The position numbers and the translations under genes were made by a program. From a virus, in the IMG/VR virus record IMGVR_UViG_3300040960_000632, positions 1 to 30,494 of that record: DNA of 30,494 bases; one strand, 5' to 3'. The notes below the pieces were generated by a model. That model was not told the origin of the DNA and searched no databases. It worked only from the letters and a program-made list of their open reading frames with translations. Every line of letters begins with the position of its first letter. The stretch's first letter is position 1. Shown piece after piece: positions 27,499 through 30,288 of the stretch.

Positions 27499-27831
27499 AT
27501 GAGCGACAAAGAACAACTAGAATCCTGGCAAATTGAAAAAGCACTAAATGAACTTGTAGAAGAGTGGAAACCCGCTACAGGTGAAGGTGCCCTAGAACGT
27601 GCTGATTTGGTAATCAAAAAACTAAAACGCATACCTAAACCATGCGAGGATTGTGGATTTATAATTGAAGAAAGATTGATTACCTTAAACGCAAGTCAAA
27701 ATCCTTATCCACACTGGAAAGAATGCTGTAAGCAGTGTAATTTGTGGCGCAATCCAGACACAAACAAGTTTGAATTTACATACAACCAATTAAGTAACTA
27801 TTACAACCTAAAAAAACGCAAGAAAAAATAG
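27499..27831 (+). CDS. Cys-rich (zinc-finger-like) protein, 110 aa
   Basis: ATG 27499 is chosen over an in-frame ATG at 27400 because the longer form would run through the end of the holin-like gene and the TAAATA box. The protein has a helical acidic N-terminus, then CEDCG at about residues 49-53, and PHWKECCKQCNLWRNP at about 71-86. The two CxxC pairs about 23 residues apart would bind one zinc ion, as in zinc ribbons or treble-clef/HNH-like folds. The tail is basic (LKKRKKK). It could bind nucleic acid, perhaps as a transcription factor; no family is certain. A stretch of non-coding RNA follows. Confidence 0.6.
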   Translation: MSDKEQLESWQIEKALNELVEEWKPATGEGALERADLVIKKLKRIPKPCEDCGFIIEERLITLNASQNPYPHWKECCKQCNLWRNPDTNKFEFTYNQLSNYYNLKKRKKK

Positions 27832-27836
27832 CATAG

Positions 27837-27844
27837 TATAAATA
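27837..27844 (+). promoter_or_regulatory. TATAAATA box before RNA-A
   Basis: TATAAATACTAATG is an exact match to the T4-type late promoter core TATAAATA and lies 6 bp before the first helix of RNA-A (27850). Confidence 0.5.
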
Positions 27845-27849
27845 CTAAT

Positions 27850-28034
27850 GTTAAGCAATTGATGAGGCGAGGCTGTCACTTCAAATCATCATTTCTGTTA
27901 ACTGTAATGCCATGCGATTAACTCCGTTTTGCTTAACACAGGATACAACAATAGCCAATTGTTTAATCCTTTAACTGACGTTTGTATATACGTTGTATCC
28001 AGAAACCCCCGCAATGGGGGTTTCATCTTTTTGG
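27850..28034 (+). ncRNA. Structured non-coding RNA (RNA-A)
   Basis: No ORF fits. Helices: GTTAAGCAA 27850-27858 with TTGCTTAAC 27929-27937 (9 bp), enclosing GATGA 27861-27865 with TCATC 27886-27890 and GTTAA 27897-27901 with TTAAC 27918-27922; then GGATACAAC 27941-27949 with GTTGTATCC 27992-28000 (9 bp), and a terminator at 28002-28031. The 16-base loop at 27902-27917 contains CTGTAATGCC, which is complementary to ten bases near the start of RNA-B (28100-28109). Could be a small RNA or the 3' UTR of the upstream gene. Family unknown. Confidence 0.6.
28002..28031 (+). terminator. Strong rho-independent terminator
   Basis: GAAACCCCC 28002-28010, loop GCAAT, GGGGGTTTC 28016-28024, then ATCTTTTT. 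Nine-pair stem. It isolates RNA-B from upstream transcription. Confidence 0.9.
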
Positions 28035-28074
28035 CATAACCTAACTTGACAAATCAAAAAATACTGGTTATAAT
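28032..28074 (+). promoter_or_regulatory. Perfect consensus promoter for RNA-B
   Basis: TTGACA 28046-28051, 17-bp spacer, TATAAT 28069-28074; both hexamers match the sigma70 consensus fully. Transcription should start near 28080-28083. The upstream TGGACA box of the other promoters is only partly matched (TGGCAT at 28032). No protein gene follows for about 740 bp, so the promoter's product is RNA. Confidence 0.85.
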
Positions 28075-28080
28075 GTAAAA

Positions 28081-28563
28081 GACATAAATAAAAATGTAAG
28101 GCATTACAGGCATTTTCAAGGCATTTCATTTGACACACAAGGTTGGCACGCCAGTTTGATATAGTGCTGTGGAAAAAGCATCCAGCGATGGAGCACACGT
28201 GAACATTGATACACTCCCCCGTGCGGTTGTATGCGGTTTAAAGGAGTTTGAGCGTGAGAACTAGGATACGCAACGTATTGATGAAAGTATGAATGTCAAC
28301 ATACGAAAACACTCGCACAACGTATAAACAGTTGAAATATAGCGGTAACGAATTCAACAATATCTATTAGATATGCCATAGTGGGTTGGGAATGAGTATG
28401 AGGTCCCTTACGTTGAGTGTATAATAAAATACCCACTTCCAGTCTTGGCTGTATTGGACACTCCAATATCAAGAAGGATGGAACCTTTAAACAGGTTCCG
28501 TCTGACTGAAACGTCGTGACTCCATATCAAGTAAAAGACATTCGCTACGCGATGTCTCTTTTA
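28081..28563 (+). ncRNA. Large structured non-coding RNA (RNA-B), about 480 nt
   Basis: No ORF with an RBS is present. Helices readable by eye include: 28095-28099/28104-28108; 28181-28184/28189-28192 with a GCGA tetraloop; 28213-28217/28243-28247; 28266-28270/28274-28278; 28287-28291/28300-28304; 28331-28336/28353-28358, capped by CG-GTAA-CG; 28360-28364/28370-28374; 28380-28386/28431-28437, enclosing 28388-28391/28404-28407; and a three-way junction closed by 28440-28444/28504-28508 with arms 28451-28458/28462-28469 and 28476-28486/28493-28503 (11 pairs). GNRA loops and a multi-branch end are features of large ornate RNAs. Size is near that of ROOL and below GOLLD RNAs, both known from phages; I cannot confirm either match. 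The 5' end carries GGCATT three times (28100, 28109, 28120). Confidence 0.7.
28533..28563 (+). terminator. Candidate 3' terminator of RNA-B
   Basis: AGACAT 28536-28541 pairs with ATGTCT 28552-28557, with inner CGC/GCG, and is flanked by AAA before and CTTTTAT after. A U-rich run follows the stem, so RNA-B probably ends near 28562, although readthrough to the hairpin at 28657 is possible. Confidence 0.6.
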
Positions 28564-28675
28564 TCACTTGTCTTATATTACTTCTTGTTTGAGCGACACT
28601 AATGTGAGATGAAAAAGAAACAAGTGAGTTTACGAACTTGTTGATTTTCATTGAACAGATGCCTCTAGGCATCTA
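28564..28675 (+). ncRNA. Further structured stretch after RNA-B
   Basis: TCACTTGT 28564-28571 pairs with ACAAGTGA 28620-28627 (8 bp), enclosing CAC-TAAT-GTG near 28597-28606; a competing pairing is ACAAGT 28620-28625 with ACTTGT 28636-28641. Then AGATGCC 28657-28663, loop TCTA, GGCATCT 28668-28674, a 7-bp hairpin without a clear U-run. It could be the 3' domain of a longer RNA-B (about 595 nt) or a processing site. Confidence 0.45.
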
Positions 28676-28820
28676 TTAATAACTACATACGCCACAAACA
28701 AATAAACAAACAGTTTGGGTGTTTTCTTATTCCTGGGTATGAATTTAAACTGCCCATCAAAAATAACCACAAATGAATCCTCTTGACTAAATACTACTAC
28801 AACATTATCAGGAGTTATAT
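28676..28820 (+). other. Leader region before the gene at 28821
   Basis: No gene. CAGTTT 28711-28716 and AAACTG 28747-28752 can pair around a TGGG/CCCA helix. The end contains a TAAATA box at 28788 and the RBS CAGGAG of the next gene. Confidence 0.5.
28788..28793 (+). promoter_or_regulatory. TAAATA box before the gene at 28821
   Basis: CTAAATACTACTAC, 11-base match to the box at 19458 (TAAATACTACT). A TTGACT hexamer lies immediately before it, too close to be a normal -35. Confidence 0.5.
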
Positions 28821-29270
28821 ATGGCAAGTTATTACACAGAATTACGCAAAGACTACCTAAAAACTTGGCGCATTTGGTATGTTATGAATCAAAGAAGCGA
28901 CCCTGAATGGCGCAAGAGATACATACCAAGACACAAGAGCACCTATTTTGCTATTTGTGATGAATGGAGCATCAAGGAAAGCGGTGAAGAAGGATTCATA
29001 AACTTTTTTGATTGCGTGGGTGATTTGGAACACGTTAGTGATTTACACAGAAAAGACACAACCAAACCCTACGGCCCAAACAACATAGTAAAAGGCGATG
29101 TAACATCAAGGGCACACAGAGCACACAGTTATCTTAATGAAAAGGCACACTACGCAAGGGTGGCATTAAATAAAGGTGTACCCAAGTGGTGTTATTACAG
29201 TAGAATAAGAAGGGGTATGACACCTAAACAAGCGGCAACAACTGCCTACAAAAGACAAAGGATAGCATAA
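28821..29270 (+). CDS. HNH/AP2-like DNA-binding protein, possible degenerate homing endonuclease
   Basis: The 149-residue protein has a basic helical N-terminus, then YFAICDEWSIKESGEEGFINFF, a stretch like the 'CDEW....F..F' segment of phage HNH/AP2-type endonucleases, followed by HRKDTTKPYGPNNIVKGDV, which resembles the 'D..KPY.P.N.RW' part. The C-terminal RIRRGMTPKQAATTAYKRQR looks like a short DNA-binding repeat (helix-turn-helix-like). The usual catalytic His-Asn pairs are not clear, so nuclease activity may be lost. RBS CAGGAG at about 28809. It follows the long non-coding RNA, a common place for selfish genes, though it could be a regulator. Confidence 0.45.
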   Translation: MASYYTELRKDYLKTWRIWYVMNQRSDPEWRKRYIPRHKSTYFAICDEWSIKESGEEGFINFFDCVGDLEHVSDLHRKDTTKPYGPNNIVKGDVTSRAHRAHSYLNEKAHYARVALNKGVPKWCYYSRIRRGMTPKQAATTAYKRQRIA

Positions 29271-29467
29271 TGGTATTACCAAAGCAATTCACACACTGGA
29301 TGACTATAAACCCAGAGGATTACGACAAGGTAGAGTTTTATCTTAACAATCTAGTAGAAGATTGGTGGAATCCTTCAGAAGGCGAATTTCCACTGGTAAA
29401 TCCGCATGAAGCATTCATAGAAAAGATGAAAGAGTTTGATATTGACGTTGTTGACTGTAGAAAATGA
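29270..29467 (+). CDS. Small hypothetical protein, 65 aa
   Basis: ATG 29270 overlaps the preceding stop (TAATG). No family recognised. The protein is acidic with a helix (PEDYDKVEFYLNNLVEDWW) and a second helix (NPHEAFIEKMKEFDIDVV). It ends with DCRK, overlapping the next gene's ATG (29464) by four bases, so the three genes from 28821 to 30288 form a coupled unit. Confidence 0.65.
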   Translation: MVLPKQFTHWMTINPEDYDKVEFYLNNLVEDWWNPSEGEFPLVNPHEAFIEKMKEFDIDVVDCRK

Positions 29468-30288
29468 ATATTAACATAATAGATTACAGAGGTGATGATA
29501 CAGTAATTAACAGCCGCGGTGATACGCTGTTTCAATACAGAACAAGATATTTTCATCGCATCCAGGAAGACTTTCAACCATGGCGTGACGCAGGACACAC
29601 ATTTACTTGCTTTACACAGCACAACAATCAAAATGATTTATTTGATGATTATTGGGGTTTTGACAAGGTTGTATCAATTCCAAGAAGCAACGCTCCACAG
29701 GCAAGAAATCACGTGCTTGACTATTATAAAAAAGGTGAATGGATTGGTGTATGGGACAATGATGCTAGTGTATATTTGGACAAGTTAGACACAAGAAACT
29801 TTATAAAAAATCTAGATACCATAGCACAAGAAGCAGAAGGTTTGGGCATTGTTAGTTTTGTTCCTTTTAACGCACAGCAGGCACCATATCCTAAAAAACC
29901 CAAACGCTGGAAACCACGTGTTGAACAAAAAGGCACAATGATGTTTTTAAAGGTTATGGATTGGCGTTATGATGAAACATTAGAATGTTTGGAAGATTTA
30001 GAAAATGCTTTACGTTTAGCACAACAGGGATATAAAACAGCACAGACAGAATTGTGTAGTTTGAAAGAATATGTTCATGCTAAAAGTACCGTATTCACTG
30101 TTAATGCCTATCATTCTGCTTATAAAAAACCAGGACCTCGTGCTAATCCAAAAGGATTGACAGAATGGGACGCACAAAAAGACAGGGTAGAAAAATATGC
30201 CCGTGCTAAACAGCAGATAGAAATTAAATTAGGTGATACTATACAAAACATCAAACAACAGCATAAAAATGTATGGAAAAACCACTAA
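29464..30288 (+). CDS. GT-A-like glycosyltransferase (possibly of the phage TAGT type)
   Basis: The 274-residue protein has a Rossmann-like beginning (a segment HTFTCFTQHNNQND), then APQARNHVLDYYKKGEWIGV directly followed by WDNDASVYLDK. An R-N helix followed by a D-x-D-like metal motif at the end of a strand is the core of GT-A glycosyltransferases. The late segment LENALRLAQQGYKTAQTELC and LKEYVHAKSTVF resembles the 'ED...A......G..T.......KE......S..F' part of families such as the TET-associated glycosyltransferases that decorate hydroxymethylated DNA bases. No TET/JBP or hydroxymethylase gene is present, so the acceptor could also be a protein or a host polymer. RBS is weak; it overlaps the upstream gene. 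Confidence 0.5.
   Translation: MNINIIDYRGDDTVINSRGDTLFQYRTRYFHRIQEDFQPWRDAGHTFTCFTQHNNQNDLFDDYWGFDKVVSIPRSNAPQARNHVLDYYKKGEWIGVWDNDASVYLDKLDTRNFIKNLDTIAQEAEGLGIVSFVPFNAQQAPYPKKPKRWKPRVEQKGTMMFLKVMDWRYDETLECLEDLENALRLAQQGYKTAQTELCSLKEYVHAKSTVFTVNAYHSAYKKPGPRANPKGLTEWDAQKDRVEKYARAKQQIEIKLGDTIQNIKQQHKNVWKNH

Follow-up and report, generated by a model that had tools for sequence, protein, structure and literature searches.

GOLLD is known from lake and marine samples. The phage RNAs ROOL and GOLLD assemble into cages and are often located close to tRNA islands; the length of GOLLD, itself a neighbour of tRNAs, frequently exceeds 800 nt (PMC12286853). The locus described here lies in an IMG/VR virus record of 30,494 bases from an aquatic phage, analysed at its full length (the window), in which terminase, portal, capsid and tail genes are annotated. 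It contains a member of a family of phage non-coding RNA that is absent from Rfam and apparently undescribed; the few large ornate RNAs of phages thereby gain a seemingly new and widespread family.

The predicted RNA transcription unit

The last tail-side gene of the window ends at position 27831, and the initial annotation held the following 989 bp to be without a gene; in agreement with this, the open reading frame listing contains no plus-strand frame of at least 40 aa in 27832-28820. The terminator proposed near the start of this gap is present, with one pair more than the nine first counted (Table 1), and similar terminators are also located upstream of the RNA in two relatives, L040 and L025. 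Both promoter hexamers had been described as consensus, which is correct; the expectation for the window at full length is 0.08 perfect TTGACA-N17-TATAAT promoters, and two are found, the other being at 1258-1286 within the other long intergenic gap (1038-1316). From these signals transcription is predicted to start at 28081 and the RNA to end near 28560; the promoter further predicts an abundant, early product.

The terminator-like hairpin noted near 28533 is a plausible 3’ end of the RNA, as hairpins of this kind occur at the equivalent point, after the second heptamer, in 47 of 146 homologues compared to 7 of 106 shuffled controls; UUCG-loop terminators are seen at the corresponding place in L117 and L123. 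Single-sequence folding of 28081-28680 is moderately better than that of shuffles (z = -2.5); as the energy is only moderately unusual, folding energy alone is no proof of structure, and the proof is supplied by the homologues.

Table 1. Features of the RNA locus in the window (positions are those of the window; helix names follow the family alignment).
Feature	Position	Strand	Remarks
Intrinsic terminator of the upstream (tail) operon; insulates the RNA unit	28002-28024	+	10 pairs
Perfect sigma-70 promoter, TTGACA-N17-TATAAT	28046-28074	+	12/12 match; predicted start ~28081
Structured non-coding RNA, ~480 nt	28081-28562	+	Ends predicted from promoter and terminator
PK1 5’ strand, TTGACA	28130-28135	+	Pairs with TGTCAA, 28294-28299, in the P5 loop (pseudoknot)
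P2 hairpin	28146-28167	+	100% paired in alignment
P3 hairpin	28178-28194	+	88.5% paired; two-sided changes in 4/4 pairs
P4 helix, closes variable domain	28203-28285	+	98.3% paired in alignment
P5 hairpin, loop holds PK1 3’ strand (28294-28299)	28287-28304	+	Two-sided changes in 5/5 pairs
PK2 5’ strand, CGTA	28321-28324	+	Pairs with TACG, 28409-28412
P6 hairpin, GTTGAA/TTCAAC, GNRA-type loop GTAA (28345-28348)	28331-28358	+	Alignment and covariation
P8 helix, GTGGGT/ACCCAC, encloses hairpin P9	28381-28436	+	Alignment covariation
Heptamer copy 1, ATATCAA	28466-28472	+	Same word as copy 2
P10 hairpin, between both heptamers	28477-28502	+	Alignment; 3’ strand partly fixed by search pattern
Heptamer copy 2, ATATCAA	28524-28530	+	~58 nt after copy 1
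Terminator-like hairpin AGACAT..ATGTCT (28536-28557), then CTTTTATC	28536-28565	+	Probable 3’ end
HNH endonuclease-like gene, 149 aa, phrog_3377	28821-29270	+	Downstream of RNA

Relatives and their distribution

The neighbouring gene at 29464-30288 led to the contig L002, which holds a 76% identical counterpart of window 28132-28558 between different flanking genes; exact single patterns returned only L002 plus chance matches, and blast gave no further relatives. The bridge to the family was a TerL profile search followed by nhmmer, yielding L040, L022 and L045, all three of which have the RNA upstream of terminase. The alignment of these three gave two two-part patterns that each matched at least 120 viral contigs of IMG/VR and occur together, 289-380 nt apart, in at least 65 loci; nhmmer with an enlarged alignment found at least 192 loci at E < 1e-10, including a few duplicates, which amounts to about 190 homologous loci on IMG/VR phage contigs. 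Conservation of the pattern letters AAGGTT, GCTGTGG and GGTTCCGTCTGACT and their neighbours stems partly from the selection of loci; the other evidence is independent of them. The conserved core of the family corresponds to 28130-28530 of the window RNA, and the window has all family features (PK1, P2-P6, PK2, P8-P10 and two identical heptamers), scoring 106.6 bits (E 2e-26) against model R1, which was built with the window included. A match in L064 (E 0.5) was rejected since it falls inside a coding gene. L025, a remote member, was noticed as two weak colinear matches upstream of TerL; L234 (~640-710) and L025 (6590-6644) have divergent shared words, longer or GC-rich, and appear to represent remoter branches.

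The RNA is absent from all 57 bacterial or archaeal contigs that match the 5’ pattern, which marks the family as phage-linked; its distribution extends across unrelated phage types. Five queries against the isolated phages of INPHARED returned nothing or chance matches only, and the covariance model found no credible match in 12 complete phage records (best E 1.8); PA5oct/Paride, Phosso and Atu_ph07, which by gp46 stand closest to the T4-like group among cultured phages, have none. The jumbo phages Paride and Phosso have stretches of 1-1.3 kb near gp46 with tiny or no genes (L338 7187-8530 and L339 7411-8424); these match neither Rfam nor the family and possibly hold other non-coding RNAs.

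A conserved pseudoknotted fold

The RNA family and its fold are secure. A covariation scan of 96 non-redundant sequences revealed the helices and three pseudoknots, and pairs were counted in a fresh MAFFT alignment (A5) of 87 of those sequences. Standard pairs make up 97.2% of 5026 base-pair cells (58 pairs in 11 helices across 87 members), bearing out the early description of some 480 nt packed with helices; the compensatory changes that had been named as its test are found in 36 of the 58 pairs. Cells changed on both sides number 725, whereas shuffles give 208 and slid controls 35-85, and pairing falls to 29-46% when partners are slid by 1-3 columns; as the sequences counted are for the most part those on which the structure was built, these figures are support for the fold and not a blind test.

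All three pseudoknots, which were out of reach of the initial reading, are supported. PK1 is 99.6% paired in the 87-sequence alignment with two-sided changes in five of six pairs, its family consensus being CCAACA/TGTTGG compared to TTGACA/TGTCAA in the window; PK2 is 98.8% paired with two-sided changes in all four pairs. PK3 is a brief pairing, in most relatives, of the P9 loop with bases just 5’ of P8, and is poorly formed in the window; the outer two pairs of P4 are unformed in the window sequence, and some pairs of P4, P6, PK3 and P9 are poorly formed in the window row, partly through misalignment. Of two GNRA-type loops first read in the sequence one fits the family, that of P6, which is GGAA in relatives; the long 11-pair arm corresponds to P10.

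Protein coding with TGA, TAG or TAA read through was rejected as an alternative. Reading TGA as a codon opens a 145-codon frame in the window; however, four of the 39 window genes stop on TGA, and the window and L002 RNAs are separated by indels of 1-2 nt.

Absence from curated RNA families

Rfam 15 gives no convincing match in the window even at E up to 10; across 18 homologous loci there is none at the gathering score and none convincing at a loose cut-off, and the few loose matches lie far below family cut-offs and, in the window, all on the opposite strand. The covariance models of GOLLD (at gathering score) and ROOL are unmatched by the window and the 18 loci, as are those of OLE, IMES, group I and II introns, RNase P, tmRNA and the other Rfam 15 families by the window and homologous loci. 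ARAGORN reports no tmRNA in the window or homologous loci, and tRNA genes are absent from the window and 41 homologous loci. The model of HEARO/IscB omega-RNA is likewise unmatched, and in place of an adjacent IscB-type protein the window has a small HNH-like protein that is absent in L002. The RNA is thus not GOLLD, ROOL, OLE or another curated family, which supports the initial suggestion of a new one; the full-text literature searched, mostly outside subscription journals, contains no description of it, with Rfam 15 and this literature being the main basis of its novelty.

Twin heptamers

The strongest non-helical signal of the alignment couples columns 316-328 with columns 376-388, the offset between them being almost constant, and corresponds to a heptamer placed both before and after P10. 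The two copies are identical within 86 of 87 RNAs, compared to at most 45 in 10,000 shuffles, while the word itself has 12 versions among these RNAs; words in the family are as different as ACATGAA, ATATCAA and GGGTCAT. The heptamers are therefore kept identical to each other while the word varies between phages. This coupling is always by identity and never by complementarity; identity is 100% at positions 0-5 and 99% at position 6, and drops immediately beyond the edges of the word, apart from some remaining identity at +8. With those columns left out of the tree, parsimony gives about 23 (23-24) changes of the heptamer, a rough count as many forks of the tree are weakly supported. Members outside the alignment have an identical pair in 66 of 68 cases; of the two exceptions, one ends at a contig edge and the other, L234, has the different shared word GTTAATGTAA. 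The remote member L025 carries GGGTCAT twice.

Judged by eye, the surroundings of both copies are alike (GTCT..CTG..C followed by the heptamer), which gives the 3’ domain the appearance of a duplicated module; the P10 segment between them is almost constant in sequence. As the word varies yet stays identical within each RNA, both copies are probably read by one partner, and since the covariation scan shows no column inside the RNA in complementary coupling with the heptamers, this partner is probably outside the RNA. The heptamer and its complement are not enriched in the phage’s own flanking DNA compared to other phages. Two candidate targets were rejected: the complement TTGATAT in the P2 loop of the window (28156) has no coupling in relatives and is considered chance, and the complement in a tRNA anticodon loop would call for bases that are unusual there (G37 after U36). 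To our knowledge, neither GOLLD nor ROOL is known to have twin words locked to each other in evolution. The agreement of the twin heptamers is a strong new observation and a sharp clue to what a large phage RNA binds, a question that becomes directly testable because every phage states its own seven-letter word twice.

Genomic context and transfer

The RNA is found in two settings. In phages of about 30 kb like the window it lies upstream of terminase, in the order Gp77-type protein, small membrane protein, Zn-binding-like protein, terminator and RNA, with an endonuclease or other small genes and then terminase on the 3’ side. The commoner setting is that of T4-like phages, some on contigs of more than 100 kb, where the RNA is preceded by gp55 (late sigma factor, phrog_12791), gp47, gp46 and a GIY-YIG gene of SegE type (PF19835) and is followed by a baseplate hub gene. 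The adjoining gene of many relatives is SegE-type GIY-YIG in place of HNH; the former is close to the RNA in 113 of 170 loci, across both phage types. Zn-finger-like and nuclease genes are frequent neighbours, and no neighbouring gene is universal. An upstream frame ends at a TAA inside the first conserved motif of the RNA in 65 of 117 testable loci, often in the T4-like setting; the RNA there is probably operon-made, and the perfect promoter is no family trait.

The RNA tree mixes both phage types, with L135 grouping with the window, which points to transfer between unrelated phages. The 274-aa gene at 29464-30288 is 85% identical to L002 6001-6825 while TerL is only 48% identical, so the RNA and this gene may travel together. 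No replication gene is obvious among the annotated genes of the window, as in the circular phage DSL-LC06 (L011); in the latter, an unannotated 755-bp gap (573-1327) has two protein-like frames that are open only if TGA encodes tryptophan, for which a different code, readthrough or decayed genes are possible readings.

Possible functions

The explanation tentatively preferred, at somewhat less than even probability, is a stand-alone phage RNA that acts in trans and whose heptamers capture a partner, most likely by base pairing with RNA. A rigid 5’ and central core would hold up the 3’ domain, whose two similar modules would each expose the same 7-nt word; the RNA could then capture either a pair of identical partners or a single partner at two sites, the partner being perhaps a host or phage RNA that is sponged or docked by pairing with the heptamers. 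Against this explanation, no partner has been found, neither the word nor its complement being enriched in flanking phage DNA; as the RNA lies directly behind a gene in many relatives, it may also act partly in cis.

It is unlikely, although the best of the rival explanations, that both heptamers are recognized by a sequence-specific RNA-binding protein of phage or host, bound either as a dimer or in two separate molecules, with the RNA as scaffold or decoy. Two like modules with identical words would suit a two-fold or tandem protein, and Zn-finger-like and nuclease genes are at hand in many loci; however, some 23 changes among very different words would be less easily followed by a protein interface than by base pairing, which the free drift of the word without any following by its neighbouring letters would favour, and no one gene accompanies the RNA universally. 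A bolder reading, seen as rather improbable, is a new type of phage RNA machine in which a freely reprogrammable 7-nt word, present twice, would bind two molecules of a single nucleic acid (either DNA or RNA), possibly along with a GIY-YIG or HNH nuclease.

The heptamers could instead be cutting sites of one endoribonuclease, whose processing would free the P10 hairpin segment. CRISPR and type III toxin-antitoxin RNAs offer examples of units that lie between repeats and are cut by a single enzyme, a precedent that suits identical sites flanking a hairpin of almost constant sequence; this is nonetheless thought improbable, as no nuclease co-occurs universally and processing alone leaves the conservation of the remaining RNA unexplained.

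Three further explanations are each given little weight. In the first, the RNA would form a homo-oligomer like the cages of ROOL and GOLLD, with which it shares large size, pseudoknots, a phage-borne nature and the lack of a constant protein partner (PMC12286853), and the heptamers would be assembly sites; a pairing contact predicts complementary covariation within the RNA, of which the heptamers have none, and the loci lack the nearby tRNA genes of many ROOL and GOLLD loci. In the second, the RNA would belong to a mobile unit together with the GIY-YIG or HNH nuclease beside it and might, for instance, direct homing. The frequency of the SegE-type gene in both phage types and the movement of the RNA between them agree with this; however, L002, L022, L189 and L243 have no such nuclease adjoining the RNA, and isolates with SegE-like genes but without the RNA exist. 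The third is a cis element and not a free RNA, for which a 3’ UTR with structure or a pre-primer of replication such as plasmid ColE1 RNA II comes into question; the upstream frames that end within the first motif agree with this, and a pre-primer would suit a phage without a noticed replication gene, but in the window the upstream terminator and perfect promoter make the RNA a separate unit, flanking genes vary between relatives, and a cis element gives no reason for identical heptamers. A self-splicing intron or remnant of a known ribozyme is scarcely credible despite the size, pseudoknots and homing-type nuclease neighbours, as Rfam yields no match to any family and the RNA is not surrounded by an interrupted gene.

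Comparison with known RNA systems

OLE and other Rfam families resemble the window family as large bacterial RNAs with an elaborate fold, whereas the latter is unmatched in Rfam 15 and found in phage contigs only. HEARO/IscB omega-RNA is similar in that the RNA adjoins an HNH gene in the window; the neighbour there is however of phrog_3377, relatives have GIY-YIG or neither, and Rfam gives no match. GOLLD is likewise a large ornate phage RNA, while the window family is about 400-480 nt in length, with no tRNAs nearby and no match to the GOLLD model. The likeness to ROOL is that of a large, pseudoknotted phage RNA whose function is likewise unassigned; the window family differs by its lack of an Rfam match, by the absence of tRNA genes near 41 loci, and by its twin identical heptamers.
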